42,414 nucleotides of DNA from the IMG/VR virus record IMGVR_UViG_3300032156_000028, positions 1 to 42,414 of that record; one strand, 5' to 3'. The notes under the pieces were generated by a model. That model was given only the letters and a program-made list of their open reading frames with translations. It was not told where the DNA came from and searched no databases. This DNA is from a virus. How positions within the stretch are numbered: position 1 is the stretch's first letter; every line of letters begins with the position of its first letter. Of this stretch, positions 18,024 to 34,515 are shown one piece after another. A program made the position numbers and the translations under genes.

Positions 18024-18048
18024 TTTCTCTCCTACTATCTTTTATGTA

Positions 18049-18070: not shown

Positions 18071-18083
18071 ATCAACTTAATTC

Positions 18084-19112: not shown

Positions 19113-19131
19113 TTTCTTACCTTTCTATCGA

Positions 19132-20801: not shown

Positions 20802-20840
20802 ATTAACCGGAGCTGGTAATGTACTTGTAGTTGTAATCAT
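20802..20840 (-). CDS. major capsid protein, exon 1
   Basis: Thirteen codons (MITTTSTLPAPVN) start at ATG 20840 with AGGA seven bases upstream. Read without splicing, the frame hits TGA three codons later. TLPAPV near the start is the usual opening of this capsid family. Joined to exon 2 it gives ...LPAPVNQHTFANKLLSVP, continuous with family expectation. Confidence 0.75.
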
Positions 20841-21076
20841 TAGAATTCCTTAAACAATAAGTTCGAGCTTTCGCCCAAATACGTTACGGTTTAAGCCAGA
20901 CGATGAGACATGAACGAGTCTCAGCTTAGAATACGTCCTAGGCTAGCGAGGCCTTAATTACGCTAAGAAGTGGGTAGGTGAGTCCCATACACCTGATTGA
21001 GAATAGAATTTGCGCTAATTCGCATCTCAGAAAGATATTAATAGTTTTTAAATAGGCGGAGCAAATTTGAAGACAT
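20841..21076 (-). promoter_or_regulatory. structured leader upstream of the capsid gene
   Basis: Over 200 bp without a gene between the scaffold terminator and capsid exon 1. It holds several short inverted repeats: AGGTG/CACCT near 20980, nested AAGC/GCTT with GAGAC/GTCTC near 20885-20925, and GGGC-GAAA-GCTC near 20865. A transcription start in this interval is required if the upstream terminator works, but I find no clear -35/-10 pair. Probably a capsid mRNA leader. Confidence 0.4.
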
Positions 21077-21106
21077 AAAAAAACCCTACAGGGATTAGCT
21101 GTAGGG
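21077..21106 (-). terminator. intrinsic terminator after the scaffold gene
   Basis: On the minus strand, CCCTACAG pairs with CTGTAGGG (8 bp, seven-base loop) followed by seven T residues. It separates scaffold from capsid transcription and may let the capsid gene be driven from its own start. Confidence 0.8.
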
Positions 21107-21154
21107 CAAAAAGGAGAAAGCCTAGGTCATTTAGGAGGCCTAGTAGTAATGAAT

Positions 21155-21949
21155 TTATCTACTTTGTGCGCATCTTAACGTTTCTTCGTGTATTTTCTGT
21201 CGTGCTTCGTCTGTTAAAGCTCCTCCAGAGAATTCATTTGCTCTAGAAAGAGGTGTTGCGCCTTGCTGGGGTGAAATACTTGCAGATGGTCTTGGTTTAT
21301 TCGAATTTCTTTGTGCCATTTCTTTATCGGGTAAGTAATTGTCTTCTGTATATATACCATATTTTTTTATTTGGTTATAGGCAGTTTTTGCTTTGGCATA
21401 TAAGTTGGGACTATTTTGAATAACTTCATACATTTCTGGATCTAATTCAGCAAGGATATTCATATTTTCTTTAGTAACTACCTTGTCAAAATCAGGGTTT
21501 CCAGCTTTAAGTTTAGTCTCTATACTCATATTTTTAGACTGAATTAATGCTTCCTTTGCCTCTCTTAACTCTCGTCTAATATTCTTAAATTCTTGAGCAA
21601 CTTTTCCGAAATGTTTACCTTCAACAAGTTCATCATCCCTAACCCCTAAATCAAAATCTTCATCAGGAGACTCAACTTTTTGTTCATTTTGCCTAGGCAT
21701 AGATCTTCTGAGTTCATCATTCTCACGTTCTAGACGTTCTGCTCTTTCTCGTAAGATACGAAGATTACGCTCTTTTGAAGATTCAACTGGGGCGGTCTGT
21801 GGCTCTACAGCAGCCGCCCTAGGCGTCTCAGCATTTTCAGAAAAAGACTCAGATTCTTGTACCTGACTTGTTTCTTGAACTTGTTCTTGAGTTACTGAGG
21901 CATTTTGGGGTTGAGCCTCTAAAACATTTTCTAATTCTTTGTCATTCAT
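21155..21949 (-). CDS. capsid scaffolding-type protein
   Basis: 264 residues. The N-terminal third is acidic, Gln/Glu-rich and disordered. A strong coiled coil follows (RILRERAERLERENDELRR and EFKNIRRELREAKEALIQSK). Then comes a segment common next to podovirus capsid genes (GNPDFDKVVTKENMNILAEL), ending in a charged helical tail. High charge, coiled coil and position between portal and capsid support a scaffold. The start overlaps the upstream stop (ATGA). Confidence 0.7.
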   Translation of the reverse strand: MNDKELENVLEAQPQNASVTQEQVQETSQVQESESFSENAETPRAAAVEPQTAPVESSKERNLRILRERAERLERENDELRRSMPRQNEQKVESPDEDFDLGVRDDELVEGKHFGKVAQEFKNIRRELREAKEALIQSKNMSIETKLKAGNPDFDKVVTKENMNILAELDPEMYEVIQNSPNLYAKAKTAYNQIKKYGIYTEDNYLPDKEMAQRNSNKPRPSASISPQQGATPLSRANEFSGGALTDEARQKIHEETLRCAQSR

Positions 21950-22470
21950 GATTCAAACTCTCCGTTCAACTTTTTACATTTATTCAATAGAGTCCCGTCA
22001 GCGAACTGTTGTATAAAAGACAACAATTCATACTCTGCTGGATCTACCTTGTCCTTATTAGTCATATATACTTTGCAAGTCTCTCTAGAAGGGATTACCC
22101 ATAAGAACTCAAGGCGGTCTTCACCTCTGTGATATTTCCAAACAGTGTTATCGTAATTAGGCGTAGGACATGATTTCCTACCTATGAAATAATTACGTAT
22201 TACATTAGCTAGGATCACTTCTCGTTTGGTTTCGATAACCACATAGAAATCTTCTGGGAATACTTTCTTATTAGCGTCTACACATTCAATGAGATTTTTT
22301 ATCCAGTCTTTCTGCATCTCTTGTTGCATTTCAACTACATCAACCTCTTCTGGGTTTTTTTGCATTAGATCTAGATAATGTTCTCCAGCAGTTTTTCGTT
22401 TCTCCTGCTTGAACGTAGACTCGTCAGGAATGTATAAATGATTTACCTCATTACTCTCTTCTACTACCAT
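21946..22470 (-). CDS. conserved head-module protein, unknown
   Basis: 174 residues from ATG 22470 with GAGAGAAG upstream; an in-frame TTG four codons earlier lies inside the terminator T-run and is disfavoured. The mixed alpha/beta sequence (FPEDFYVVIETKREVILANVIRNYFIGRKSCPTPNYD) is recognisable as a recurrent phage gene next to the scaffold, but unnamed. It ends in an ATGA overlap with the scaffold gene. Confidence 0.55.
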   Translation of the reverse strand: MVVEESNEVNHLYIPDESTFKQEKRKTAGEHYLDLMQKNPEEVDVVEMQQEMQKDWIKNLIECVDANKKVFPEDFYVVIETKREVILANVIRNYFIGRKSCPTPNYDNTVWKYHRGEDRLEFLWVIPSRETCKVYMTNKDKVDPAEYELLSFIQQFADGTLLNKCKKLNGEFES

Positions 22471-22480
22471 CTCTTCTCTC

Positions 22481-22510
22481 AAAAAATTTGCGGGGGTTCT
22501 TCACTCCCCC
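22481..22510 (-). terminator. probable intrinsic terminator
   Basis: GGGGG/CCCCC stem (22492-22496 with 22506-22510), nine-base loop, then GCAAATTTTTT on the minus strand. It lies after the DUF6496-like gene. The stem is short but entirely GC. Confidence 0.55.
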
Positions 22511-22560
22511 AAGTACCACTCTCTCAACTTCGTGTATATTAAATATATAATCGCCGCCAT

Positions 22561-22746
22561 CTATCCCTTTTTCTTCTTCTTTTTCTTAGACAATCCAGCT
22601 TCTGAAAGCGCGATTGCTAACATTTGTTTTTCATTAGTTACTATTGGGCCTTGTTTACTTCCACTGTGAAGTTTTCCCGATTTGCCATCGTGCATAACCT
22701 TTTCTACTTTTTTGTTACCACGAAGTCTTTTTCTAGTTTTTGCCAT
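22561..22746 (-). CDS. DUF6496-like small basic protein
   Basis: 61 residues with the family-like core KVEKVMHDGKSGKLHSGSKQ followed by GPIVTNEKQMLAIALSEAG and a poly-lysine tail. Such proteins occur in phage head modules and in bacteria; their function is not established. The basic tail suggests nucleic-acid contact. Confidence 0.7.
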   Translation of the reverse strand: MAKTRKRLRGNKKVEKVMHDGKSGKLHSGSKQGPIVTNEKQMLAIALSEAGLSKKKKKKKG

Positions 22747-22757
22747 TTATTTCCTAA

Positions 22758-22782
22758 AAAGAGGCCTCCATAGGCCCCCAAT
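22758..22782 (-). terminator. weak terminator-like hairpin
   Basis: GGCCT/AGGCC stem around a short loop, followed on the minus strand by TCTTTTTA, just after the 53-residue gene. Short stem, so activity is uncertain. Confidence 0.4.
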
Positions 22783-22797
22783 TCAATGAGTTCTAGC

Positions 22798-22959
22798 CTA
22801 ACTTGTATAGCCCTTATGTCTCATTACTGAGTCTCTCAAGAGCCTATTATCCAGATCTTTCATTATCTTAGACTCCTTGGATTTGATGTTGGCTGGTTTG
22901 CCAAGTATCTTCCAAGCAATCTTTTTAGCTTTACCGTTTACCCTAGGCATTGCAGGCAT
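22798..22959 (-). CDS. 53-residue basic protein
   Basis: ATG at 22959, two bases after the upstream stop, with AAGG eight bases before; TAG at 22798-22800. The product (MPAMPRVNGKAKKIAWKILG, then helical and charged to HKGYTS) is Lys/Arg-rich. Same strand and spacing as its neighbours. Function unknown; possibly a DNA-binding head component. Confidence 0.6.
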   Translation of the reverse strand: MPAMPRVNGKAKKIAWKILGKPANIKSKESKIMKDLDNRLLRDSVMRHKGYTS

Positions 22960-22961
22960 AA

Positions 22962-23201
22962 TTACGCCTTTCTAGGTTTAATACCTTTCCCAAACTCAGA
23001 ACCGTCATGCTCCATTTGCTTATTAATAGCGGTTAAAGTATCGGAAATGTCTGCATACATGTGACCTACACCAACATTAGAGTAGTTTTTCATAACTACA
23101 TTCTGTGGAAGACAAGCCTGTGCTGACTCGTCGTTATGAATCATTCCACCATCTGACGCATTGGCTGAATTGCCTTCGGAACTGTAATATCGCTTTGCCA
23201 T
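22962..23201 (-). CDS. conserved small protein next to the portal
   Basis: 79 residues from ATG 23201 (AAGG six bases upstream). The start MAKRYYSSEG, the segment GGMIHND and the closing helical region (YADISDTLTAINKQM) look like a conserved phage gene near portals. No function known. Confidence 0.55.
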   Translation of the reverse strand: MAKRYYSSEGNSANASDGGMIHNDESAQACLPQNVVMKNYSNVGVGHMYADISDTLTAINKQMEHDGSEFGKGIKPRKA

Positions 23202-23263
23202 GATTGGCCTTTCGTAAAAACTGAGTCCGTGAGGATTAGTCACGACCTCAAGGTTAATGACCT

Positions 23264-23362
23264 CTATTTACTACACTTAGAGGGTTTCTTTTTCTTTAAT
23301 GCTTTTATCATTGCTTTATCATGTCTTTTCTCTTCTTTCTCGTATTTCTTTGGAAGTTTCAT
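23264..23362 (-). CDS. 32-residue very basic peptide
   Basis: ATG at 23362 after AAGGATTTTT; TAG at 23264-23266. About half the residues are Lys or Arg (MKLPKKYEKEEKRHDK, ending KKKKPSKCSK). It belongs to a set of three tiny basic proteins between portal and scaffold, probably acting together with DNA or capsid. Confidence 0.55.
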   Translation of the reverse strand: MKLPKKYEKEEKRHDKAMIKALKKKKPSKCSK

Positions 23363-23370
23363 AAAAATCC

Positions 23371-23688
23371 TTATTTTTTTAATGCGTCTTCAAATTCATC
23401 AAATAACGTTCTACCATTCGACATAACAACAAAAATTCTCTGTGAAGTATCCGAAGAGGAACTATCTGTAGTTACTGTCATATCGGACATTTCTGTTGTT
23501 CTATATGTTTCTCCGAAAGTACACTTATACCCTTGCGAGTAGATGTACTCAATTAGATGAGCAATATTCAAAGTGAACTGCTCCTGTCTAGGCAGGAGGG
23601 GAACTTCGTAAAGAAGTTCCCCTCCTGAACAAGACAGATTGGAAAGGATTAGTATATGAATGCTAAGATAAATTAACCTTAGGAACAT
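23371..23688 (-). CDS. M15-peptidase-like fragment, catalytic part missing
   Basis: 105 residues. The start overlaps the portal stop (TAATG). Residues about 34-66 (RQEQFTLNIAHLIEYIYSQG followed by CTFGETYRT) match the N-terminal part of phage D-Ala-D-Ala carboxypeptidase/M15 endolysins. The zinc-binding His/Asp motifs that should follow are absent; instead there is a Ser/Thr-rich stretch and a short helix. Either a degenerate endolysin or a reused fold. The first 32 residues are hydrophobic and overlap a perfect DNA hairpin, so the true start may be internal. Confidence 0.5.
   Translation of the reverse strand: MFLRLIYLSIHILILSNLSCSGGELLYEVPLLPRQEQFTLNIAHLIEYIYSQGYKCTFGETYRTTEMSDMTVTTDSSSSDTSQRIFVVMSNGRTLFDEFEDALKK
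23593..23627 (-). other. perfect 15-bp hairpin
   Basis: CAGGAGGGGAACTTC (23593-23607) pairs exactly with GAAGTTCCCCTCCTG (23613-23627) around five bases, the strongest hairpin I find in the window. It contains AGGAGG on the minus strand, which would be masked in RNA. No U-tract follows. It lies inside the predicted start of the M15-like frame. Confidence 0.7.
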
Positions 23689-25796
23689 TACTTAGCCCCT
23701 TGAGGTTTTGAAGGTTTCTTTTTCTCTGGTACTTTTACACTTCTTACTTTGCTAGTAAGAGAGTCGGGAGAGAGTTTCGTAGACTTTGTACCTGTAGTTT
23801 CTGCTTGTGTATCTCGTTCTGATTCTTTAATAGTATTCATAATGAGAACTAAACGTTCTAACTGTGCTAAATCAATACTCTCTAACTCTTTCATGGCCTT
23901 AACTTTATTCAATGCGGCCAGTTCTTCCTCTTTAACAGATTCAGCAAGTTGTTTTTTGGCCATCATTCTATTTTCTTGGATTCTAGATACACGCTCCATA
24001 CCTAAACCAGTATCGGCAGCGGCTCTAGCATGTGATAGTTCTGCTCTGGCTTGTAACTCCTGCATTTGAACATTAAGTTGCATCTCTTGTTGTTTCTGTT
24101 GTTGTTCAGATGCACGTTGCATACTCTCGAGAACTTTAGATTTATTTTGTAAGGTAATAGCTTCAATGAAAACATCGTCTGGTAGGTTGATTCCAGCTTC
24201 TTTCAAATAAAGCATTTGCGCTAACTGCATTTGACGTTGGCTTGAACTGTTAATACCATCTTCCACGACTGCATCGTAAATCCCGAAGGCTTTATTATAA
24301 AATTGTGGAGTAGGTTCTTCTTCTATGATTCTTTTTATTTTGCCTGGGGTGAAATTTGACTGAATGATGTTAATCATTAATCTACCCAAAAGCTTTTGCG
24401 CTCTGTCTAGATTATCGAATATACCCTGTAACCCCATGACTCCAGCACGTTGACGAATCATCGCTAAGATACCAGCCTTATCATCAACCGCAGTACCTAG
24501 ATTTTCGTCTGACACGCCAACGATTTCTTGCATCTCCTTACCTAGCAACTCAGAAAGTTGAATAGTTGTAGGTGCTATAGCTCCAGGAATAATTTGTTCG
24601 ACATCAGACATACTAGCAGTAGCTTTAAGAGCAAGACCCTTACCCTGTCCAACTTGATTATAGACATCATCTGGATCTACTAGGGCATCTTCTTTATATT
24701 TCCAACCAGAGTTAATCTGACTTTCTAAAATATCTAATTCTATAGCTTTACGACGATTGTAAAGGAACTGTGAATCTCGTAATCCACGCACTAACCCTTG
24801 TAATCTCCAATTAAATTCAGGCATTTGTGGAGCGTAGTACGTAAACACTGGAATGAATGGGTATTGGTCTATGCCCAAGGGGTTCGGCCCGTTGTAGTAC
24901 GTCTTTCCCTGAACAGATATAGCCAACTTGGTGGTTGGGACGTCGCTTTCAATAAGTGTGATTTGTGGATACATGGCTAGGAATTGTTTTAAACCATCCT
25001 CATTGTCATGTTTCCACTCTAGAGTTTCCCCTGTCTGACTATCAACTAATAATTTTTGTGTTCGATAAGCTTTATAATAATACTCATCGTAGATAACTAG
25101 ATCATTTCTCTGACCGATATTGTAATTTTCTGGCATGAATAAGAACTTACCATCTTTGTTATCCCATACTGGCAATTCTCTAATATCATCTGCATGATCT
25201 GGTAATAACGAAGCACATTCTTGTCTGGTTACAAATGATCTTTTCCAAAGTGCGTTACAATCGGATAGGTCGGACTTGCGAAAGAACGGATCTATTAGAA
25301 ACCCGTTGTAGCTGCAATTATCGATCTTTATGTTTCCATTAATAGGATCTGATCGATAGTCTACCCATACCTGTAAAAGATTCATACCTGTTACAAGTGA
25401 ACCTTCAAATGCCTCTGAAATTGTTTCTAAAACATCTTCCTGCTGATTAATCCACATTAAAACTTTTGTGAATTGGTCAGCAGTTTTCATATCCCCATTT
25501 TCTCTAGGGGTTACGATGGTGGACTTTCTATTTGTTCTCTGATGCCCAGAAATCATGTTCTTTAGGCGTCGTATACGATTAAAATTAAACTGCCTGCGAC
25601 GATTTGCAGGAAGACTACCATAATAGTCATTCCATAAAGTTGCATCGCCTGCCTCAAATCTGGTGTCAGTCTGCGCTTCGGCCCAAAAAGCCATGTTTAC
25701 TTGAATAGCATCAGAATAGAAAGATTCCATACGGGAGCGAATGTCTCTGGATTGCTCATCAAGATACATCTCCCCTAGTTCTGGGAATAATGGCAT
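23688..25796 (-). CDS. portal protein (P22 type)
   Basis: 702 residues, ATG after GGGTGAGGAT. The opening (LDEQSRDIRSRMESFYSDAIQ), NRRRQFNFNRIRRLKNMISG followed by HQRTNRKSTIV, and the wing/crown pattern SGWKYKEDALVDPDD are typical of P22-like portals. The C-terminal 150 residues are a long coiled coil (barrel-like), then a basic tail. It forms the twelve-subunit DNA entry channel. First gene of the virion operon after a terminator and a proposed promoter. Confidence 0.85.
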   Translation of the reverse strand: MPLFPELGEMYLDEQSRDIRSRMESFYSDAIQVNMAFWAEAQTDTRFEAGDATLWNDYYGSLPANRRRQFNFNRIRRLKNMISGHQRTNRKSTIVTPRENGDMKTADQFTKVLMWINQQEDVLETISEAFEGSLVTGMNLLQVWVDYRSDPINGNIKIDNCSYNGFLIDPFFRKSDLSDCNALWKRSFVTRQECASLLPDHADDIRELPVWDNKDGKFLFMPENYNIGQRNDLVIYDEYYYKAYRTQKLLVDSQTGETLEWKHDNEDGLKQFLAMYPQITLIESDVPTTKLAISVQGKTYYNGPNPLGIDQYPFIPVFTYYAPQMPEFNWRLQGLVRGLRDSQFLYNRRKAIELDILESQINSGWKYKEDALVDPDDVYNQVGQGKGLALKATASMSDVEQIIPGAIAPTTIQLSELLGKEMQEIVGVSDENLGTAVDDKAGILAMIRQRAGVMGLQGIFDNLDRAQKLLGRLMINIIQSNFTPGKIKRIIEEEPTPQFYNKAFGIYDAVVEDGINSSSQRQMQLAQMLYLKEAGINLPDDVFIEAITLQNKSKVLESMQRASEQQQKQQEMQLNVQMQELQARAELSHARAAADTGLGMERVSRIQENRMMAKKQLAESVKEEELAALNKVKAMKELESIDLAQLERLVLIMNTIKESERDTQAETTGTKSTKLSPDSLTSKVRSVKVPEKKKPSKPQGAK

Positions 25797-25899
25797 ATCC
25801 TCACCCTTTTTTTTACTATCTCAATTCTCTTTTACTCATGCGTCCTTTACGCGCATAAGCAATCACCTTGTAGGTGCTTCATCTCTCTACTCTGATGAG

Positions 25900-25929
25900 A
25901 TTGTAGTAAATGGTTGTGAGGCGTAGCAA
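25900..25929 (-). promoter_or_regulatory. candidate promoter of the portal operon
   Basis: Minus strand TTGCTA (25924-25929), 18 bp, TACAAT (25900-25905). It lies right after the terminator at 25942-25980, leaving a leader of about 100 nt before the portal start. Match to sigma70 is moderate. Confidence 0.45.
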
Positions 25930-25941
25930 ATTTTGAACATG

Positions 25942-25980
25942 AAAAAACCCCCATGCTGTATATCATTTCAAGCATGGGGG
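25942..25980 (-). terminator. strong intrinsic terminator
   Basis: CCCCCATGCT (25948-25957) pairs with AGCATGGGGG (25971-25980), a 10-bp stem followed on the minus strand by six T residues. It isolates the portal operon from the region upstream. Confidence 0.85.
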
Positions 25981-26026
25981 CATTAACGAATCGGATAGAC
26001 CGAAACGGTTTTAGGTCTAAGTAAGT

Positions 26027-26218
26027 TTAAGCGTCTTCTGAATCAACATGTAACCAGGTTAATACTTGTGTTCTCTGTCGTTCAACCTCTAAGGATAGTT
26101 CAACGATTTGTAAAATTAAATTAGTGTCAACTCCTGGGACTGTCAATTCTGCTTTTAAAATTCTATGTAATTCATCTAATCTATCTAATGTATTCTCTAA
26201 ACTTTTATTGGTGTCCAC
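26027..26218 (-). CDS. small helical protein, unknown
   Basis: 63 residues, GTG start with GGAG seven bases upstream. Entirely helical and probably a coiled-coil dimer (TLDRLDELHRILKAEL...LSLEVERQRTQVLTWL). It stands alone between a repeat-rich control region and a strong terminator, which suggests its own promoter and a regulatory role. Confidence 0.6.
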   Translation of the reverse strand: MDTNKSLENTLDRLDELHRILKAELTVPGVDTNLILQIVELSLEVERQRTQVLTWLHVDSEDA

Positions 26219-26318
26219 TGCGGTACTCCGTTAGTTGTTGAGGTTAAAACCCACGCCTCACCTTTACACATACGTAAACTGCCTACGGGAAACGATTCTA
26301 CACCCTTCCTGTCATAAG

Positions 26319-26385
26319 AGGTGCTACCATAGCTTTGGGGAGGTGCTACCATAGCTTTGGGGAGGTGCTACCACAGCTTTTTTTT
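26319..26385. repeat. three 22-bp tandem repeats with a central dyad
   Basis: Units start at 26319, 26341 and 26363. Each carries the dyad GCTACCATAGC (GCTACCACAGC in the third) and is separated by a G-run. A degenerate fourth copy may lie near 26391. Two-helical-turn spacing puts the dyads on one face, as for a repressor, activator or Rep protein. Confidence 0.75.
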
Positions 26386-26423
26386 AAAATGGCGCTACAA
26401 CAACATTTTTTCATTTTCAAAGC

Positions 26424-26474
26424 TAACGGTAACGGTAACGGTAGAGTACGTTACTTACCGTAACGTCTGTTACC
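26424..26474. promoter_or_regulatory. TAACGG repeat and inverted-repeat cluster
   Basis: Three TAACGG hexamers in tandem (26424-26441) face inverted copies to the right (ACGGTA 26438-26443 with TACCGT 26456-26461, then GTTACC near 26469-26474). Together with the 22-bp repeats this forms a 150-bp protein-binding-like region: an origin or late-gene control site. Confidence 0.55.
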
Positions 26475-26625
26475 TTAGGTCTCGCCATCTCCATTTTTGG
26501 ATGGAGACGCTCGCCCACAAAAAACCAAAAAGGGGGAAACCCTCTCTTTTTTTGGATACCATTATTAGATCTTGTAAATATATGGCTTCTACTATCTGCT
26601 GCACACCATTTTGTATAATATCCAT
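26470..26625 (-). CDS. small protein after the RNA ligase, start uncertain
   Basis: 51 residues from ATG 26625, chosen for AGGAGT six bases upstream. In-frame ATGs at 26655 (GGGAGA upstream) and 26721 (no ribosome site, adds a CTLC motif) would lengthen it to 61 or 83 residues. It begins MDIIQNGVQQIVEAIY and ends basic and aromatic (SIQKWRWRDLR). The 3' end forms hairpins at DNA level. Unknown function. Confidence 0.4.
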   Translation of the reverse strand: MDIIQNGVQQIVEAIYLQDLIMVSKKREGFPLFGFLWASVSIQKWRWRDLR

Positions 26626-26729
26626 TGAGCTACTCCTGTTAAAAAAATTAAACATGTTTCTCCCTGCTATATAACTAGACTTACATAACGTACAAAAAAT
26701 ATGACCACTATGTAAATCCATTTACATAA

Positions 26730-27362
26730 CTAGTCTTTAAAGTCTCGCGCTTTAAGTTTAAACATCACAGGATTGGCATTCATGGTGTTGAATCTTACGA
26801 GTGGTTCTGATCTAGCGATGACACCTTCCATCTCGTAGGACATTCTATTATACCTACCAATTGGTTTGCTTTTAACAAATTCGATAATTTCATTGACTGT
26901 AAGCATCCCAAAATCATGAGGAGAAAGCAAATTTAGCCGTATAGCAAAATTATCTACCTCTTCTCGAGTACTCCATCGACCATTTACGTAAACATCGAAC
27001 AAAATAAACGATTCCGTAGGGGAATATCTACCACCAGACTGGATTTTGCCTCCAAAACCCTCACCAAACATGATGATTGGAGTTTTAACCCAGGTAAATA
27101 ATCCAGAATTACTTAAATTTCTAGCTATATCTAACATTGAAATGAAATTTAATAGATACGGAGGTATCGAGGCTTGATCTGTCCTACCTTTTACCTCAAC
27201 TTTTCCATCTTGTGAGATATAAATACGAATATTCATACCATCTATCTTCTCTTGTACTCGCCATTTCTTATGTGAGGCGAATTCAGGACAGGCATAATCG
27301 CCTTCTATGATATTATGACCATCGTCTCTCTTCCATAGAGTATTAATCTTTGGATACTCCAT
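26730..27362 (-). CDS. RNA ligase (nucleotidyltransferase superfamily)
   Basis: 210 residues, ATG after GGAAAGTAGC. Motif I is EKIDGMN with the adenylated Lys39, followed by a FGEGFGGKI block, motif III-like FILFDVYV (119-126), motif IV EGVIAR (179-184) and motif V MFKLKAR (Lys202, Lys204). This order is that of ATP-dependent RNA ligases. It would seal 3'-OH/5'-P RNA ends. In phages, such enzymes repair tRNAs cut by host defence nucleases. No kinase/phosphatase partner gene is visible, and the C-terminal domain of Rnl2 is absent. Confidence 0.8.
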   Translation of the reverse strand: MEYPKINTLWKRDDGHNIIEGDYACPEFASHKKWRVQEKIDGMNIRIYISQDGKVEVKGRTDQASIPPYLLNFISMLDIARNLSNSGLFTWVKTPIIMFGEGFGGKIQSGGRYSPTESFILFDVYVNGRWSTREEVDNFAIRLNLLSPHDFGMLTVNEIIEFVKSKPIGRYNRMSYEMEGVIARSEPLVRFNTMNANPVMFKLKARDFKD

Positions 27363-27363
27363 G

Positions 27364-27714
27364 CTACTTTCCTTTCCTAACTACTTTACCATTCCAGTGC
27401 GGCTTTTTTATACTAACAATTCTCCAATAATCTTCATCCGAGTAATCCCAAAAGACATGGCTATAATCACCAGCTTCAGGGGATACATTATATTCACTAT
27501 GCCAATTCACAGAACCAATAAGTCCCATATTCTCATAATCTAAAAAAGGTTTACCTAAAATCGGATAATAAATATTTTTTCTGTTCTTTTCTGCTCTAAT
27601 TTTTTGTTTTAAAAGTCTATCTCTTTCAATTCTAGCTTCAAGTATCCTTTTTTCATATTTATCCCACTGCTTTTGTAAGTAACTTTTTTTCTTTTTCCGT
27701 GAATAACGCTTCAT
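27364..27714 (-). CDS. basic coiled-coil protein, unknown
   Basis: 116 residues from ATG 27714; a longer frame upstream would cross the terminator at 27724-27752 and is rejected. The first 50 residues are highly basic and helical (MKRYSRKKKKSYLQKQWDKY). The second half is beta-like and aromatic (GSVNWHSEYNVSPEAGDYSH). Its stop lies just before the RNA ligase start, so both may be co-transcribed. Confidence 0.5.
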   Translation of the reverse strand: MKRYSRKKKKSYLQKQWDKYEKRILEARIERDRLLKQKIRAEKNRKNIYYPILGKPFLDYENMGLIGSVNWHSEYNVSPEAGDYSHVFWDYSDEDYWRIVSIKKPHWNGKVVRKGK

Positions 27715-27723
27715 TTTATCCCA

Positions 27724-27752
27724 TAAAAAAAGAGGGTTAGTAGTCCCTAACC
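27724..27752 (-). terminator. intrinsic terminator
   Basis: On the minus strand GGGTTAG pairs with CTAACCC around GGACTA, followed by TCTTTTTTT. It ends the transcript carrying the primase-like fragment and lies just upstream of the 27714 gene. Confidence 0.8.
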
Positions 27753-27788
27753 CCCCGTAGTAAATGAATAATACCTGCGAAAGTATTA

Positions 27789-27962
27789 TCAATAAAATAT
27801 CAATCTGCTGTCAATATCATACATGGGAACCACTGCCACTTTCCCATATTTATTATTTCTAAATCGAATTCCATAATAACCAACTTTCTTACTATCGAGA
27901 TAATCAGAAGTTCCTGTAGCGTTCGAGTGCATCCAAAACCCATAAGCTTTTTTAGCTGCCAC
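27789..27962 (-). pseudogene. primase N-terminal-like fragment
   Basis: 57 residues, GTG at 27962 with AAGGA upstream. The pattern AKKAYGFWMHSNATGTSDYL, then SKKVGYYGIRF, KVAVVPMYDIDSRL resembles the region just before and into the Toprim core of phage or plasmid primase-helicases (SG..YL..K.V..YG.RF...VPM.D.DG.L). It stops where the catalytic part should begin. Either a relic or a small protein reusing this fold. The comparison is from memory of family pattern. Confidence 0.45.
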
Positions 27963-27978
27963 TTCGTCCTTTTAAAGA

Positions 27979-28020
27979 TTTAGGGTTTGGTGTTACACAA
28001 TTTAGGGTTTCGTGTTACAC
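27979..28020. repeat. two 20-bp direct repeats at 22-bp spacing
   Basis: Copies at 27979-27998 and 28001-28020 differ at one base. Each ends in the dyad GTGTTACAC. They lie between two divergent genes and probably form the shared operator or a small iteron set. Confidence 0.8.
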
Positions 28021-28081
28021 CTTGCTTAAAAAAACATCGAGAAATAAAGCCTTCTTTACATGGTACAATATTTTTGGCGAA

Positions 28082-28339
28082 ATGGAAATGAAAGTGAGTG
28101 ATTTGATCAATCCACAAAGTAGTATTGACCAAAAAGAAGAGGACAGAGAAAGTATTTTTCAGGCATTACGCTTAATTGCTGGCAATTCAAAATCTGCGGA
28201 AATCAATGCGCGAACACTTGGAAATAAATTAAAGTCTTACAAAGACAGGCGGGAACTTGGCTATGTATTGACAATTGCTCGTAAGAATCAAGCTTCTGTT
28301 TGGTGGAAGGTAGTAAAAACTTCAAAAATTTCTGAATAA
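28082..28339 (+). CDS. primase/helicase C-terminal-like small protein
   Basis: 85 residues from ATG 28082; a TTG at 28022 would add 20 codons. No good ribosome site is seen for either. The block SAEINARTLGNKLKSYKDRR and closing VWWKVVKT resemble the winged-helix tail at the C-terminus of many phage primase/helicase ATPases, where an R.LG..L...R segment is followed by a short W-containing strand. It may act now as a DNA-binding regulator of the adjacent repeats, or be a fragment. A -10-like TACAAT lies at 28064-28069. Confidence 0.45.
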   Translation: MEMKVSDLINPQSSIDQKEEDRESIFQALRLIAGNSKSAEINARTLGNKLKSYKDRRELGYVLTIARKNQASVWWKVVKTSKISE

Positions 28340-28353
28340 AATTGCAATGTAGT

Positions 28354-28381
28354 GGGTTGGTCTATGTGTTTTGACCAACCC
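28354..28381. terminator. hairpin between convergent genes
   Basis: GGGTTGGTC (28354-28362) pairs perfectly with GACCAACCC (28373-28381), loop 10. It separates the plus gene ending at 28339 from the minus gene ending at 28475. No U-tract on either side, so a bidirectional terminator is probable but not certain. Confidence 0.5.
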
Positions 28382-28474
28382 CCCTGTTAGTGTATCCAAT
28401 ATAGCGCCTCAATCTGGGCTTACGATAAAATTGATTTTATACGCATTGGTCACATTGGTCTATTCCTATAACAC

Positions 28475-28636
28475 TTACGTAAATATGTCACATTGAGTAT
28501 TTTGTATCTTCTGCCATTTTTTCCGCGTTAGATATAAAAGAGACCAAGGCGACCAACCCCTGATGATTCCTTTGAATTTAAATTCATCCAAGTCCTCTTT
28601 CCATTCTCTCCATGCTTCGGATTCAAAAAATTTCAT
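28475..28636 (-). CDS. 53-residue protein, unknown
   Basis: ATG at 28636 overlaps the upstream stop as ATGA; TAA at 28475-28477. Trp-rich helical product (MKFFESEAWREWKEDLDEFK, then IIRGWSPWSLLYL). Translational coupling to a CxxC-protein gene supports expression. Function unknown. Confidence 0.55.
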   Translation of the reverse strand: MKFFESEAWREWKEDLDEFKFKGIIRGWSPWSLLYLTRKKWQKIQNTQCDIFT

Positions 28637-28863
28637 TTAACCCCTAAGAATTCTAGTAATAATGGTTTGCAATCATTACACACATGAAAAGTAGCAGAAT
28701 AATAAATAAAGTATGAGCAAATTTCCTCTGGCCTAGGAGGAGCTTTATCAAAATCTATCCTATAAGGTCTAATAGTAGTTTTAGGCCATAAAGTATCTTG
28801 ATCTTTTGGCAGTTCGCTTTTTATCTCTTTCTGGCAATGATCGCATTTATAAATTTGGCTCAT
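28633..28863 (-). CDS. small CxxC zinc-binding-like protein
   Basis: 76 residues, TAATG-coupled to its upstream gene. Two knuckles, CDHC (7-10) and CNDC near residue 62, could bind one zinc. The middle is basic and proline-containing. One of at least seven small CxxC proteins in this half of the genome; target unknown. Confidence 0.6.
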   Translation of the reverse strand: MSQIYKCDHCQKEIKSELPKDQDTLWPKTTIRPYRIDFDKAPPRPEEICSYFIYYSATFHVCNDCKPLLLEFLGVK

Positions 28864-29111
28864 TATTCCACCGTATTTTTTGACTTATACCCACAGTAAG
28901 GACAATAGTTAATTTCATCCTCATACTCTTCCATATAAAAAAACAAGTGGCCTAAATACTCATAGCAACATCCACACTCATGGGTTACTAAAGCTTTATC
29001 AAACCCATCTCTAAATCTAACTGGATTCCAACTATCATCTCTATAGATAATTTCTTCCCTAGGGTCTTCTAACTTGCTTATATCTTTTGAGTAGGTGTAA
29101 AGCCTGTTCAT
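28863..29111 (-). CDS. small CxxC zinc-binding-like protein
   Basis: 82 residues; ATG directly overlaps the end of the SPFH gene (ATAGATG). Knuckles ECGCC near residue 47 and CPYCG near residue 70 suggest a zinc ribbon. The N-terminus is acidic and the segment between knuckles aromatic (GHLFFYMEEYEDE). Coupled in both directions. Confidence 0.6.
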   Translation of the reverse strand: MNRLYTYSKDISKLEDPREEIIYRDDSWNPVRFRDGFDKALVTHECGCCYEYLGHLFFYMEEYEDEINYCPYCGYKSKNTVE

Positions 29112-29908
29112 CTATCTAACACATTCATTAAAGGCATAGACGCCCCGAAGTATGTTGGTAGTTTGCCATCCCATTTCTCTATTTTCTTTAACTGTATAAT
29201 CTCGGGAGAGGTACAATTCTTTTTAATATTCAAGGCGTAGGCTTCTGCATCTGCACGCATTTTAGTTTGTAATGCTTGCTCTCTGACTTGCTCTGTGAGG
29301 TTGTGAGCTGTCTTTGAGGTTTGCTCTGCTATCTGCTTCTCCTCAACTGCATGAATAAACTGAGGGGTAAAGTCTAGATGTACAAAGTTAAAATCTACAA
29401 GGAGAATAAAGATAGGGTCTAGACGTTCTTTCAACTCTTTGAATACTTCATCTTTTGCCTCGTTTCTTATCCTGATGAGATCTTCTGCTGTAAATCGAGC
29501 AACAATGGCTTTAATACTTTCCTGGCTATAAGGATCAAGAATAATGTTCTCAAAATCCGTACCAACTGCACGATAAATCTTAATGGCATCAGTTATCCTA
29601 TAGTTGATAGCCACCTCAGCAGAGACGGATTGCAAGTCCTTAGATAGAGCTGTAGTCGTTATTAACTTCTTGCAAATCCTATTGTTGATGTAAATGACAT
29701 TGTCCCAGAATGGAATCTTAAAATACATTCCTGATTCTGTGTGTGATCGTACTATCTTACCCATTCTCATGTGCAGTGCTGTATATCCTGGCTGTATCAC
29801 GTAATATGATTTAAAGCCTAAAATAACAAATACAATACAAAAAATTATAAAGAAAACCATCTTCTTAAGCGGGCCAAAAGCCTCTTTAACATTGTCGAAA
29901 TCTTCCAT
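29108..29908 (-). CDS. SPFH/prohibitin-like membrane protein
   Basis: 266 residues, ATG after AGGAGAGCA. One N-terminal membrane helix (MVFFIIFCIVFVILG, about 18-35) is followed by the SPFH domain: YVIQPGYTALHMRMGKI, SGMYFKIPFWDNV, KDLQSVSAEVAINYRIT and AVEEKQIAEQ. A coiled-coil tail then runs to the end. Cellular members (prohibitin, HflK/HflC) form large membrane rings and regulate the FtsH protease. A phage copy could modify FtsH, microdomains or the infection membrane. Its place after the large terminase is not the usual site for host-takeover genes. Confidence 0.85.
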   Translation of the reverse strand: MEDFDNVKEAFGPLKKMVFFIIFCIVFVILGFKSYYVIQPGYTALHMRMGKIVRSHTESGMYFKIPFWDNVIYINNRICKKLITTTALSKDLQSVSAEVAINYRITDAIKIYRAVGTDFENIILDPYSQESIKAIVARFTAEDLIRIRNEAKDEVFKELKERLDPIFILLVDFNFVHLDFTPQFIHAVEEKQIAEQTSKTAHNLTEQVREQALQTKMRADAEAYALNIKKNCTSPEIIQLKKIEKWDGKLPTYFGASMPLMNVLDR

Positions 29909-29928
29909 TGCTCTCCTATATGTTTAAA

Positions 29929-31323
29929 TTAATACCTATTATCATCCCTAAAGAAGTCAGGTAAGTTTGATTTATTACCAGACAAAGCTTTTTGGTATCT
30001 CTGTTTTAATTCATCTGCACTTAATCCGTCACGAGTCTTGCTTAAAGATAAAACCATGTACCTAGCGGCATCTGCACCGTGACTAAAATTATTGTGTAAA
30101 GGTTTATCGTGATAAATCTTAAGTTTTACATCGTATTCCCTCCTGTAATTCTCCAAACACTTGAGTAGATCGGCGCATCGCTCTTCATCTATCCACATAC
30201 GACTAAATGCGCTCCTAACTGCTTCGATTCCGTCCTCGAGAGTTAGGTTAGGTAAAACACTTTTCATTCGTCCTAGGTCATCCTTACGCGTCTCAAAGAT
30301 AAGTCCTAGTTCCCTTGCCTTCTCTATTCTGGTCATACCTGTACCAAATTCATGGACAGCCACGTCGTGCGGAGCGAAATGTTTATTATGTACGTATCCA
30401 AGATCTCTTTCTTTCTCTCGTATTATTTTTATGTAATGTTCTAACCCTTGTAGTTGATTACTGTAATAGTCTATCACACGAACGCATAAACCTTGAACCT
30501 GAAACCATACTATGCAGCAGGCGTCATTATAACCCAAATCCCATGCGGTATTAACTCCTATGCCCGACTCGTACGGCACTTTCGTAATCCTACCCTCCAA
30601 ACGCATCTTGTCTAGGTACTTAGTGTAAAAAGCTCCTTCCTGACCTAACCATGAGCAATAATACTCTTGGTCTATCAAATCATCTGACATTATACCCTCA
30701 GCTCGTTCTCTAGCGATTTCGTGCATAGGTATATGCTGGGTCTCCTCAACTGTCATCTTATAACTGAACCATAATGGATTTTTCTGTGCTATGTTCCACA
30801 GCTCCCAGAAGTGGTTTTTGCCACGTGGGGTGCTGATAAAGATCATTGTACCCTTGTTTGCAACAGTTATAGGACGCATATAGTGATAGGCTCGTGGGTC
30901 TTGAAGCGCGTACTCTGAATATATAATCAGGGAGGCGTTTGTACCTACCAGGGCATCTATATTGTCGCTCCCACAGAGCTGTAACAAGCTATCGTTAGTA
31001 AAACGTATCTTCATGTCTGAGGAGTTAATACTCGCTACTAACTCAGAGGGGACAAAATCTAAAAACCTAGTCCCATCATTCATCATCGAATCCCAAATTA
31101 CTCGACGGGCCATGGCAAAAGTGGGCAATATGTAATAGCAAATAATTTGCTTCTCCAGACATGCTCTTATTGCCAAATTGAAACAACAAACATCTTTGCC
31201 TGCTCTTCGTGGCAATAACGCCATTATTCTCTTGTACTTCTTATTGAAATATGCGTCCAATAAGGGTAGTTGATAAGGTCTGGGTTTAAATTTGTCCAGA
31301 CTTATCTTGTTCTCTTCCTTCAT
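29929..31323 (-). CDS. large terminase subunit
   Basis: 464 residues from ATG 31323; a TTG ten codons earlier lacks a ribosome site. Walker A is ALLPRRAGKD (about 36-45). The Walker B strand reads ASLIIYSEYAL, with Ser in place of the usual Asp before the catalytic Glu, a variant seen in related podovirus terminases. The motor motif is FISTPRGKNH. The nuclease domain begins AWDLGYNDACCIVWFQ and includes HDVAVHEFGTG with further acidic residues. It packages DNA into the prohead through the portal. Confidence 0.85.
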   Translation of the reverse strand: MKEENKISLDKFKPRPYQLPLLDAYFNKKYKRIMALLPRRAGKDVCCFNLAIRACLEKQIICYYILPTFAMARRVIWDSMMNDGTRFLDFVPSELVASINSSDMKIRFTNDSLLQLCGSDNIDALVGTNASLIIYSEYALQDPRAYHYMRPITVANKGTMIFISTPRGKNHFWELWNIAQKNPLWFSYKMTVEETQHIPMHEIARERAEGIMSDDLIDQEYYCSWLGQEGAFYTKYLDKMRLEGRITKVPYESGIGVNTAWDLGYNDACCIVWFQVQGLCVRVIDYYSNQLQGLEHYIKIIREKERDLGYVHNKHFAPHDVAVHEFGTGMTRIEKARELGLIFETRKDDLGRMKSVLPNLTLEDGIEAVRSAFSRMWIDEERCADLLKCLENYRREYDVKLKIYHDKPLHNNFSHGADAARYMVLSLSKTRDGLSADELKQRYQKALSGNKSNLPDFFRDDNRY

Positions 31324-31369
31324 TATTACTCTCGATTCTCCACTTGCCGACAAATAGTCGACAAGTTAC

Positions 31370-31407
31370 TTATTCAAGTTTTGGGTCTCTCCCTACCCAA
31401 TGAATAA
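31370..31407 (-). other. hairpin between small gene and terminase
   Basis: Outer stem TTATTCA/TGAATAA (31370-31376 with 31401-31407) and inner stem TTGGGT/ACCCAA (31381-31386 with 31395-31400), with a four-base bulge. No U-tract. It could set a processing point upstream of the terminase gene. Confidence 0.4.
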
Positions 31408-31413
31408 AATTAG

Positions 31414-31722
31414 TTAAACAGTCATTACATAAACGCCATTCATTTTAGGAAACTCGTAAACATCTTCTAGATATAAAACATTAGAGTGATACTCGAATAT
31501 ATTCTCACACTTATTGCACTTAAAAGAGTTAAGTCTAATTGAACTATACCAACCCATAGCCTTTTCCAACTTGCCTAATCTCTCCTCCATAGACATAAAA
31601 AGGTCTAGTCTTCGCATAATCTCATCTAGGTCATAACTATTAGGCCCAATGTATATCTTTTCACTTCGTGGGTGATGTGGGCCAACGTACACGCCATCAT
31701 CGTCCTTATCACTTAGGGGCAT
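31414..31722 (-). CDS. small protein with single CxxC, unknown
   Basis: 102 residues, ATG after AGAGGAAAAACGTA. Acidic start (MPLSDKDDDGVYVGPHHPRS), a coiled helix (DEIMRRLDLFMSMEERLGKL), then CNKC and a beta end. It overlaps the upstream gene slightly. Position directly before the terminase might suggest a packaging role, but nothing in the sequence shows it. Confidence 0.5.
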   Translation of the reverse strand: MPLSDKDDDGVYVGPHHPRSEKIYIGPNSYDLDEIMRRLDLFMSMEERLGKLEKAMGWYSSIRLNSFKCNKCENIFEYHSNVLYLEDVYEFPKMNGVYVMTV

Positions 31723-31990
31723 TACGTTTTTCCTCTAACTTTAAACAATATTCTGTACAGGAGGGCAAAGCCTGTAAATAACAAGCATGACAACTATAAT
31801 ATTTGCACATCTTTTCATGATCGTCAGAGACTGATTTTATCTCTTTACTGCTAGGGCCTTTAATACTTATCTCCCAGCAGAATCGCTTTTCAGTTGGCAT
31901 TAAACAAAACTCACAGAGTACTTTATTTTTACTCTCTTCTCGTTTGTTCTTCATCGAAGCCCGTATTTTATCTTTAGCTTTAGGAGTCAT
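31709..31990 (-). CDS. small Cys-rich protein
   Basis: 93 residues, ATG after GGAGCTATAG. Basic N-terminus, then CEFC, a lone Cys, CKYYSCHAC and a C-terminal Cys pair (SCTEYC): enough for one or two zinc sites. Follows the XRE-like gene with no gap. Unknown target. Confidence 0.55.
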   Translation of the reverse strand: MTPKAKDKIRASMKNKREESKNKVLCEFCLMPTEKRFCWEISIKGPSSKEIKSVSDDHEKMCKYYSCHACYLQALPSCTEYCLKLEEKRNAPK

Positions 31991-32551
31991 CTATAGCTCC
32001 TCAATGTTAACGATGTTATCTTGAAGGACTTTCTTAATAATATCGTTGGTACATTCAGGGCAGATAAAACATTCAATGAGAGTATTAGAATTAATAATAG
32101 AATTCTTAGGAGAGGGAATAACAATCATCTTGAAATAGTTATCACAATCTGGGTGGCCCCAAGTAGATTTTTCTGTACTTGGTATCTCTATACCACATAA
32201 AGCACAATGAAAATGGGGTTTGATAGCTATAGAACTATCTACACCCATAACAGTAATCTTGTCGGGTATGCCTTCTTGCAAAACCTGGTCTTTCTGAAAG
32301 TTCTGTGATTGCTTCAATCTCATTTTCTCATATCTTTGCTTGCAATCTTCCTTGTAGGCTGCACCTGCTTCAACTGGGTCAAGCTTCAACCCGTTTATAA
32401 TCTTATCGCAAACAGTGTCTCTTACGCCTGTAGTGCCATGAACTACTTGACTAATATGACTAGGAGAAGTACCACAGAGTTTTGCCACTGTAGTAAATTT
32501 TGTTATACCCAACTCTGCCATTTTCTTTAAAATTAGTTCTCTAAATTCCAT
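31991..32551 (-). CDS. helix-turn-helix regulator with CxxC tail
   Basis: 186 residues from ATG 32551 (GGAAAGAT upstream); a longer frame overlaps the gene before it and is rejected. Residues 1-60 (MEFRELILKKMAELGITKFT, then TVAKLCGTSPSHISQVVHG) form an XRE/Cro-type HTH. The C-terminal half has CALC, a His/Cys pair near CD and CPEC, like a zinc ribbon. A phage repressor or activator fused to a zinc domain. It could control this operon of small genes. Confidence 0.7.
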   Translation of the reverse strand: MEFRELILKKMAELGITKFTTVAKLCGTSPSHISQVVHGTTGVRDTVCDKIINGLKLDPVEAGAAYKEDCKQRYEKMRLKQSQNFQKDQVLQEGIPDKITVMGVDSSIAIKPHFHCALCGIEIPSTEKSTWGHPDCDNYFKMIVIPSPKNSIINSNTLIECFICPECTNDIIKKVLQDNIVNIEEL

Positions 32552-32573
32552 ATCTTTCCTTTCCAATCCTAAG

Positions 32574-32774
32574 TTATCGCTCTTGCATTTCAGCAAACAA
32601 TCCAGTGCGCCAGCAATGATCGCAGCACCAGAAATCACGTATTTCATGGTCTGTGTTTGGTTCCAACTCGACAAGGTAATGACCGTCTGAGACTTCGAAG
32701 AACGTTCTGCAAGCATCGCAACGCCTTTTATCGCAATTCTTTTGGGTTTTGGGTCTCGTGAACTTTCTTAGCAT
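32574..32774 (-). CDS. small zinc-ribbon-like protein
   Basis: 66 residues from ATG 32774 with GAGGGA upstream; the TTG four codons earlier is ignored. Knuckles RRCDACR and WCCDHCW are separated by about 32 residues, a typical ribbon spacing. Basic N-terminus (MLRKFTRPKTQKNCDKRRCD). Confidence 0.6.
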   Translation of the reverse strand: MLRKFTRPKTQKNCDKRRCDACRTFFEVSDGHYLVELEPNTDHEIRDFWCCDHCWRTGLFAEMQER

Positions 32775-32919
32775 TACTTCCCTCAATTAAGTCATCTACT
32801 AAAGAAATACTTACACAGGTCTCACAGAAGTGTTTAACATTCTTGTCTTGCTTGACTGTTAGCATGTTCTTTTCAATGACAATGCCGCAAGCATCACAGT
32901 TATAAGTTATCGTTTTCAT
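32728..32919 (-). CDS. small zinc-ribbon-like protein
   Basis: 63 residues from ATG 32919 (AGAGGA upstream). Knuckles CDACG and CETC about 22 residues apart give a compact zinc finger; the tail is acidic then basic. It overlaps the following gene by 47 bp in another frame, which suggests tight packing. Confidence 0.6.
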   Translation of the reverse strand: MKTITYNCDACGIVIEKNMLTVKQDKNVKHFCETCVSISLVDDLIEGSNAKKVHETQNPKELR

Positions 32920-32924
32920 TTCTT

Positions 32925-33128
32925 TTATTCCTCTACATCTACCGTATAAATTATTAATGCTCCATGCCATATATTTGATTCATCTACAGAAGTTGAATAT
33001 TTAATATCTATCAAGTGTTCGCAGTCAATACCTTCTTCCTCTAAGAAATCATTAATTTCTCCAGAAAGTGTTTGATATTTATAACTACAAAAACACTGTA
33101 CTAAAGGTTCTCTGTTAACATTTTTCAT
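32925..33128 (-). CDS. Cse60-like small protein (tentative)
   Basis: 67 residues from ATG 33128 after GAGGGTTAGAA. The pattern EINDFLEEEGIDCEHLIDIK followed by YSTS...ALIIYTVD resembles the Cse60 sporulation-family fold, a small ferredoxin-like domain also common in phages. Function in phages is unknown; the naming is by resemblance. Confidence 0.5.
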   Translation of the reverse strand: MKNVNREPLVQCFCSYKYQTLSGEINDFLEEEGIDCEHLIDIKYSTSVDESNIWHGALIIYTVDVEE

Positions 33129-33138
33129 TTCTAACCCT

Positions 33139-33498
33139 CTACGATTCTTTAAAATACAAAGTCTTATTACCAACCGAACGAAACTTGTCTATATAGGCCC
33201 AACGTTTGATAGTCATTGGCATAGTGGTATAGTCTAAATACCAATTACCATCACCCCTACAATGAACGATAAATAATTCGCCTGTTGGGGCTTCGCCTAG
33301 TACTCTTTTGCCAACCTCCGCAAATCTTTGGTCATTCCATTCAAAAAATACCTCTCCTTTCATTTCGCATCGTCGTTTCTCACATAATTCACAATTACAG
33401 CCCTCTACAGGTTCATAAAGGGCTAACACTTTTTGCTCTGTTACCTTTTTGCATTGATGACATACCCAAGTTATGCCAGCATTACAATACATACACAT
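33139..33498 (-). CDS. CxxC-rich protein with C-terminal alpha/beta domain
   Basis: 119 residues, ATG after AAGGAAGC. The first 45 residues have CMYC, CHQC, CNCELC motifs for at least one and perhaps two zinc ions. The rest (FEWNDQRFAEVGKRVLGEAP... WYLDYTTMPMTIKRW) is a small alpha/beta domain. Unknown function. Confidence 0.55.
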   Translation of the reverse strand: MCMYCNAGITWVCHQCKKVTEQKVLALYEPVEGCNCELCEKRRCEMKGEVFFEWNDQRFAEVGKRVLGEAPTGELFIVHCRGDGNWYLDYTTMPMTIKRWAYIDKFRSVGNKTLYFKES

Positions 33499-33709
33499 TT
33501 GTTAGCTTCCTTGTCTTCTTGACTTCGCAAAAACATTTCATACAAAGATTTATATCTACATGCTTAAATTTCCTAGGCGGAGAAAATAAACTAAATTCTG
33601 GCTTCAAGGGTACAATATCATCATCATTTACATATTGCCTTACTCTGTACCCATTACCATTGTGTTTATTTCCACAAAGTTCGCAGAGTTTATAAGTCTT
33701 CTTTATCAT
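33482..33709 (-). CDS. small zinc-ribbon-like protein
   Basis: 75 residues, ATG after GAGGTAGTAA, nested in the end of its upstream neighbour. Knuckles CELCG (9-13) and CMKC near residue 56. Part of the same packed cluster. Confidence 0.55.
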   Translation of the reverse strand: MIKKTYKLCELCGNKHNGNGYRVRQYVNDDDIVPLKPEFSLFSPPRKFKHVDINLCMKCFCEVKKTRKLTNVYVL

Positions 33710-33890
33710 TTACTACCTCATCTGGTGGGTTGTAGATAAATTTGGTTTCATAATCTGGCTTATCGAAAGTCCATGCAAAATCATTCATACCTTGCACCCA
33801 ACCCGTTGCACCCTCAGGGGGTATTATCTCGTTGTTATCTTTGTCATATATTTTGACCGCAGGGGTTTTAGATATCGTCATCTTTTCCAT
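33690..33890 (-). CDS. small protein, unknown
   Basis: 66 residues, ATG after AAGGACACTA. Beta-rich (AVKIYDKDNNEIIPPEGATG) with an acidic C-terminus. It overlaps genes on both sides by about 20 bp. No motif recognised. Confidence 0.5.
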   Translation of the reverse strand: MEKMTISKTPAVKIYDKDNNEIIPPEGATGWVQGMNDFAWTFDKPDYETKFIYNPPDEVVNDKEDL

Positions 33891-34515
33891 TAGTGTCCTT
33901 AGGTAACTCTTTAACTATTTCTGTCTCTGGAATAGGAGGCATAAATATGTATTTGGTTCTATTATCTCTCTCATGCTCCTGCTCTGCCTGTATTCTCAAC
34001 AAGGCCCGTTCTAGTTCCATCTCCCTAATAGCTTGGTCATAAATAGGCAGAGTATATTTAACTATCCCCTCTGATAGTTCCCGTTTGATTACACCTAGCT
34101 CTCGTCTATCTCCTATAGCCTGCATAGATATTTCATAAGCAGCATTAAAAGAAGGCGAACGTTTACGTATATCCTTAACAACGCTCCAAGTTAAACCCCT
34201 ATCATTAAAGAACAGGGTAATTTTAAGAGCTTCTGGGTCATTTAAGGCCCATTTAACTAACTTCTCAGCTAGTAAAGCTATCTCTTTTTCAGTTAAGTAA
34301 ATTTTCTGTTGGTGAATAGGGTTATAATAGATATAGCCCCCGTCTTGAATTGCGACGCCTTCGGACTTAGACGTATTGTTAATGATTTCTGAATCGAGTT
34401 CATCCTGGTTTTTGCCATCTTTGTTTTTCTTAGCACGCTCTGCTTGCACGTATTTGACTGCTGGAGAAATTACGGCATTCTTGGTCTCCAGATTATATTT
34501 ATGTTTACCACCCAC
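33868..34515 (-). CDS. possible small terminase subunit
   Basis: 215 residues, GTG start with GGGAG seven bases upstream. The central part (LTWSVVKDIRKRSPSFNAAYEISMQ, taken as a helical HTH) followed by a long helix and a short beta end (NRTKYIFMPPIP) fits the layout of podovirus small terminases: DNA-binding domain, oligomerisation helices and a C-terminal strand. The tail is acidic. It lies near RusA and 2.5 kb upstream of the large subunit rather than adjacent, so the call is tentative. Confidence 0.45.
   Translation of the reverse strand: MGGKHKYNLETKNAVISPAVKYVQAERAKKNKDGKNQDELDSEIINNTSKSEGVAIQDGGYIYYNPIHQQKIYLTEKEIALLAEKLVKWALNDPEALKITLFFNDRGLTWSVVKDIRKRSPSFNAAYEISMQAIGDRRELGVIKRELSEGIVKYTLPIYDQAIREMELERALLRIQAEQEHERDNRTKYIFMPPIPETEIVKELPKDTNGKDDDI

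Follow-up and report, generated by a model that had tools for sequence, protein, structure and literature searches.

The question raised by this locus is where a virus obtained a gene for an SPFH membrane protein, placed directly after its large terminase gene, and what that protein would do during infection. The window, the whole 42,414-nucleotide viral record that was analyzed, contains only one such gene. Lists of phage SPFH genes appeared in 2006 (PMC1524935) and 2011 (PMC3220722), and a 2021 paper took up the connection of phage SPFH proteins to HflKC, FtsH, and lysogeny, noting that obligately lytic phages carry SPFH genes too (PMC8540360). Phage SPFH genes as such and the idea of an FtsH connection are thus already published and not new. 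Among 50,697 deposited phage records searched by tblastn, homologs were found in 541, none of them at least 60% identical to the window copy, and the closest deposited phage copy, in an unannotated fecal clone, was 35% identical. What is new is the Dependentiae origin of the window gene, which is ordinary in kind and unusual in its origin and its cap.

The SPFH gene and its protein family

The SPFH reading frame runs from 29908 to 29108 on the minus strand, is intact, and begins with an ATG that has GGAGAG closely upstream. It starts 20 nucleotides beyond the stop codon of terL, and at its far end the stop codon overlaps the next start codon (ATGA, 29108 to 29111). The position given in the preliminary description, between the large terminase gene and genes for CxxC proteins, is therefore correct, as the features of the locus show:

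29929..31353, minus strand: large terminase subunit terL, directly upstream of the SPFH gene and in the same direction (Terminase_6N, 2.6e-5; terminase PHROGs)
29912..29918, minus strand: sequence resembling a ribosome-binding site (AGGAGAG region) ahead of the SPFH start, read directly
29108..29908, minus strand: SPFH/Band 7 protein of the prohibitin type, 266 amino acids (Pfam Band_7, PDB prohibitins, AlphaFold model, structural match)
29810..29902, minus strand: predicted N-terminal membrane-anchor helix, residues 3 to 33, hydrophobic core at about 17 to 32 (AlphaFold model)
29213..29365, minus strand: predicted C-terminal coiled-coil helix CC1, residues 182 to 232 (AlphaFold model; also 51 residues in the Dependentiae model)
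29177..29206, minus strand: predicted shortened CC2/cap helix, residues 235 to 244, the site of the missing heptad right before IEKWDG (phage and host models)
28863..29111, minus strand: zinc-ribbon-like CxxC protein of 82 amino acids (weak Zn_Ribbon_1 match)
28633..28863, minus strand: CxxC protein of 76 amino acids (zinc-finger matches all below threshold)

The two ends of the record (1 to 424 and 41991 to 42414) are 95.5% identical over 424 bases, within a tail-fibre-like frame. Because the ends match, the record suggests a near-complete virus genome of about 42 kb, circular or permuted, assembled across strain variation.

Profile searches place the protein firmly within the SPFH family. 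Pfam Band_7 matched residues 37 to 206 (E value of 2.4e-30, 106.3 bits against a cutoff of 23.6), confirming both the full SPFH domain reported earlier and a gene assignment much beyond chance. The phage family PHROG_200 matched residues 15 to 263 (E value of 2.6e-34); this family and the annotated phage prohibitins (T4-like, Vi01-like, KPP10-like, and others) represent the same domain in a phage genome. A TRADD_N match was judged to be noise, as a scaffold-like protein matched it too, and the PADLOC models of antiphage defense gave no match to the SPFH protein at an E value of 0.1.

An AlphaFold monomer model built from 57 window and locus sequences (mean pLDDT of 82.6) contained a helix at residues 3 to 33, the SPFH1 and SPFH2 folds, a 51-residue helix at 182 to 232, and a short helix at 235 to 244, so that the membrane anchor and the coiled coil of the preliminary description are both present in the model. 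Structure comparison ranked human prohibitin first (Z score of 19.8 over 215 residues, rmsd of 6.2), followed by erlin (Z score of 16.7) and the best HflK/C entry (Z score of 16.3), with matches spanning residues 9 to 224 and beyond. Sequence matches in the PDB were likewise best to prohibitins (1e-24), with HflC at 3e-6. Membership in HflK or HflC was rejected, with only 55.9 of the 134.4 bits required for HflC and 35.3 of the 159.4 required for HflK (NCBIfam equivalogs) and separate positions in the tree. Since prohibitins are best by both sequence and structure, and HflC and HflK fall far under their cutoffs, the window protein is a prohibitin-type (SPFH4) protein and not an HflK or HflC.

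Bacterial and mitochondrial prohibitins (SPFH4, PHB1-PHB2) have a transmembrane helix, SPFH1 and SPFH2, and a long coiled coil in common with the phage protein, and the bacterial ones share its C-terminal I-E-K-W-D-G motif. Unlike these, the window copy is phage encoded and a single gene. HflK and HflC of Escherichia coli, which modulate FtsH, are alike in SPFH fold and N-terminal anchor (HflC model match of 2.9e-15), but they are two paralogous genes side by side, whereas the window has no paired gene. QmcA-type stomatin-like proteins, common in Dependentiae, share the fold and belong to another clade of the tree. No NfeD-like partner was recognized by Pfam beside the phage gene, where the neighbors are terL and the CxxC gene.

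Relationship to Dependentiae prohibitins and host of the phage group

In a scan of cellular genomes with one genome per species, the best matches were chromosomal genes of “Candidatus Dependentiae” (TM6, Babeliales; L116 to L124), 48 to 62% identical to the window copy. Two of these (L116 and L117) are labeled “uncultured bacterium,” and their genomes (G030 and G031) belong to the same phylum as Dependentiae genome G033. Another, L119, lies amid ordinary cellular genes in a complete 1.22-Mb Dependentiae genome, and no conserved gene neighborhood was seen around the Dependentiae prohibitin genes. The next-best cellular homologs were from Elusimicrobia (about 40%) and then cyanobacteria (about 34%).

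A maximum-likelihood tree of 57 sequences (IQ-TREE), among them 12 further phage SPFH proteins and the HflK, HflC, and QmcA of E. coli, placed six phage copies (the window, L002, L004, L005, L006, and L196) and 13 Dependentiae copies in one group with 99/100 support. These six distinct copies represent five carriers in the phage group, the window, and L196, with L002 and L003 being near duplicates. The window copy grouped with L002 and L004, and the sister of these three was a Dependentiae gene, L204 (100/92). HflK, HflC, and QmcA of E. coli fell outside the Dependentiae group, so that the phylogeny proposed as a check in the preliminary description sets the window copy among Dependentiae prohibitins and apart from HflK and HflC. 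The other sampled phage SPFH proteins also group apart from it, and descent from a general phage SPFH lineage was rejected, as the Dependentiae clade that holds the window copy (99/100) contains none of the 12 other phage rows. We regard the SPFH identity and the Dependentiae origin of the phage gene as nearly certain.

Within this group, the six phage copies did not form one clade in the best tree, and a single clade was rejected by the AU test (p-AU of 0.015). Judged by the tree, phages probably captured a host prohibitin more than once. A single origin of all phage copies is disfavored by the same test, with long branches and the shared absence of a heptad leaving some room for it.

Dependentiae are intracellular parasites of protists. 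By portal protein, the closest deposited relative of the phage group is at most 25% identical, and the SPFH gene, backed by two further shared sequences, indicates a likely host for this so far unplaced group. The first is a relic of terL. When Dependentiae genomes were searched with TerL, the only matches were a pair of short relics in G041 and a pair of weak, distant ones in G105. The G041 relics are two N-terminal terL fragments on a contig that also holds a tRNA synthetase gene, mraY, and other chromosomal-type genes, and their nearest TerL within the phage group is that of L196 (50% over 58 residues). Because a 46-residue part is also 52% identical to a sequence of a Fusobacterium phage, this line is weak by itself and not exclusive to the phage group.

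The second shared sequence is a family of glycine-rich proteins with signal peptides, which adjoins the terL relics in the G041 contig and lies just downstream of the SPFH gene in sister phages L005 and L006 (genomes G004 and G005). The family has members in 30 of 101 Dependentiae genomes and in none of 48 genomes of Elusimicrobia, Goldiibacteriota, and cyanobacteria, and the one phage member searched had no match in deposited phage records. The nesting of the SPFH gene, the terL relics, and this shared family together make Dependentiae the likely host of the phage group. Members of the glycine-rich family (for example, L240, 8237 to 8971; L244, 436 to 933; and L245, 14143 to 14754) have a VRGxGGGP-like motif, number as many as seven in a single Dependentiae genome, and have no Pfam match.

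Two other results count against this host assignment. A portal search for a prophage of the group in the 101 Dependentiae genomes, run with no positive control, was empty, and tetranucleotide usage was uninformative, as it did not favor Dependentiae over Elusimicrobia or cyanobacteria. No paper on Dependentiae phages was found in the open literature searched, and such papers may exist elsewhere.

Distribution, cap helix, and possible roles

Band_7 was detected in 5 of 29 group records searched, all five having been fetched by the SPFH query itself, and in none of the stretches seen of 24 relatives fetched by terL or portal, most of which are partial. Its absence from those stretches means that the SPFH gene is dispensable in the phage group. 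The preliminary description had considered a recent random acquisition, with the gene lacking from all close relatives; relatives do carry it, patchily. Carriers are scattered on the portal tree (5 changes), and the gene varies in position: right after terL in the window and L004, between terL and portal with other genes in L005, between scaffold and capsid in L002 and L003, about 10 kb upstream of terL in L006, and downstream of an ERF-like gene in the L196 record. Between the window copy and L002 or L004, dN was about 0.20 and pS was saturated at about 0.79 to 0.87, indicating from codon comparison that the gene is under purifying selection. Patchy distribution and constraint fit a gene that is optional but selected.

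The most distinctive feature of the phage copies is near their C terminus. The spacing from VEEKQIAEQ to IEKWDG was 55 residues in all six phage copies and 62 in 12 of 13 Dependentiae copies; it was also 62 in all 12 Elusimicrobia and Goldiibacteriota rows and 55 in cyanobacteria and the one remaining Dependentiae copy. The phage CC2/cap helix is thus one heptad shorter than in nearly all Dependentiae and all sampled Elusimicrobia prohibitins. The last helix had 10 residues in the phage model and 18 in the L119 model, with CC1 at 51 in both, which would place the loss in the cap helix, a region of low model confidence. According to published comparisons, variation among these proteins is greatest in the C-terminal parts, which make up the cap, and the number of subunits varies with the length of the long helix (PMC12624060). 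It is therefore a fair inference from single-chain models that the phage cap is altered and the ring size unchanged. On the best tree, four changes in the heptad trait are needed across the phage, Dependentiae, and Elusimicrobia rows; losses among the phages number up to three, or one if the phages form a clade despite the AU test. Independent pairs are too few for a sign test of phage label against heptad loss. With SPFH genes in hundreds of phages, close phage and host copies that differ by one cap heptad offer a concrete test of function.

Our proposal, a tentative one that we rate at somewhat less than an even chance, is that the phage took a prohibitin from a host that was most likely a member of the Dependentiae and uses it to build a cage that changes FtsH-linked turnover of membrane proteins. 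HflK/C bind FtsH and form cages that modulate it, prohibitins regulate mitochondrial m-AAA degradation of membrane proteins, and bacterial prohibitins are presumed to act in a similar way (PMC2636767, PMC12624060, PMC12048511). An FtsH association of the phage prohibitin is plausible, since FtsH is encoded in 96 of 101 Dependentiae genomes, and the protein may form a ring or cage. The SPFH protein would be made during infection along with the packaging and head genes, would insert into the inner membrane through its N-terminal helix, and would form a ring alone or, where a host prohibitin is present, mixed with it. By enclosing or shielding FtsH or other membrane proteins, the phage ring would alter which membrane proteins are degraded during virion assembly. 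Of the HflK, HflC, and lambda cII framing in the preliminary description, the FtsH link stays plausible, and the HflK/HflC part is weakened by the prohibitin-type assignment and the missed HflC and HflK cutoffs. A lambda-style lysogeny reading is disfavored, as no integrase or CI/CII-type switch was recognized among the window proteins scanned, a part of the full set.

The main rival to the FtsH cage is a membrane scaffold that works without FtsH, in which the ring would fence an inner-membrane patch and gather phage membrane or virion proteins or stabilize the stressed membrane late in infection. This is somewhat unlikely. SPFH proteins generally organize membrane domains (PMC12344292, PMC12624060), and the secreted glycine-rich protein encoded after the SPFH gene in G004 and G005 is a possible client; however, that family has no copy in the window, and no partner gene is conserved across the six phage copies, whose neighbors differ in each case.

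Two further readings turn on the cap. It is unlikely that Dependentiae phages captured a host prohibitin two or three times and lost the same heptad each time, giving a cage subunit able to redirect FtsH-linked proteolysis or to invade host rings. Direct poisoning of the host ring, by a short-cap phage subunit that enters mixed rings and changes or breaks their cap, is quite unlikely. The window copy is up to 62 to 64% identical to host copies, the short form is common to all six phage copies, CC1 is equal in length and CC2 eight residues shorter than the host's in the models, and paralogs in solved hetero-rings differ in C-terminal arrangement (PMC12624060). Against poisoning, few Dependentiae genomes (13 of 101) have a close prohibitin, and 55 residues is the normal spacing in cyanobacterial homologs and in one Dependentiae copy, so that a short cap is compatible with an ordinary ring.

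A part in superinfection exclusion or lysis timing, also raised in the preliminary description, is very unlikely: the predicted inner-membrane location fits either, but positive evidence is lacking, with no tie to a recognized lysis cassette or immunity region, a relative's M15-type endolysin-like gene located elsewhere, after portal, and no match to defense-system models. Equally improbable is host-derived cargo of little benefit, gained and lost at random, which accords with the patchy presence and varied positions but is already disfavored by the strong amino acid constraint between phage copies whose synonymous sites are saturated and by the intact frame, start, and ribosome site of the window copy.

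Other features of the window and its relatives

The major capsid gene of the window is apparently interrupted near its start (20010 to 20860, minus strand), where the main capsid frame is preceded by a short first exon, ITTTSTLPAPVNDKS, and by a LAGLIDADG open reading frame (20136 to 20762). An Rfam search over 18000 to 34000 found no group I intron and returned two chance-like miRNA matches only. L005 has a related LAGLIDADG frame at the same place, and the capsid breaks of other relatives lie near residues 69 to 82. In L004, L077, L079, L080, and L103, terL is one long frame of 623 to 1,090 amino acids with an insertion at the P-loop (about residue 50), and some of the long frames have a further insertion near residues 400 to 427. 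These insertions are as expected for inteins.

An RNA ligase gene (26730 to 27362, minus strand; Pfam, 8.6e-12) lies between terL and portal in the window and was unmatched in the four sister phage contigs compared. A relative of an M15 peptidase (endolysin-like) gene at 23371 to 23688 (minus strand) is without the catalytic half and so may be truncated; the gene is intact in L002 (5530 to 5883). The same sister phage encodes a Fic-like protein (5886 to 6548) with a HPFIDGNGRMARL motif, and L122 has a Dependentiae homolog of that protein (31% identical) within 1 kb of its SPFH gene.
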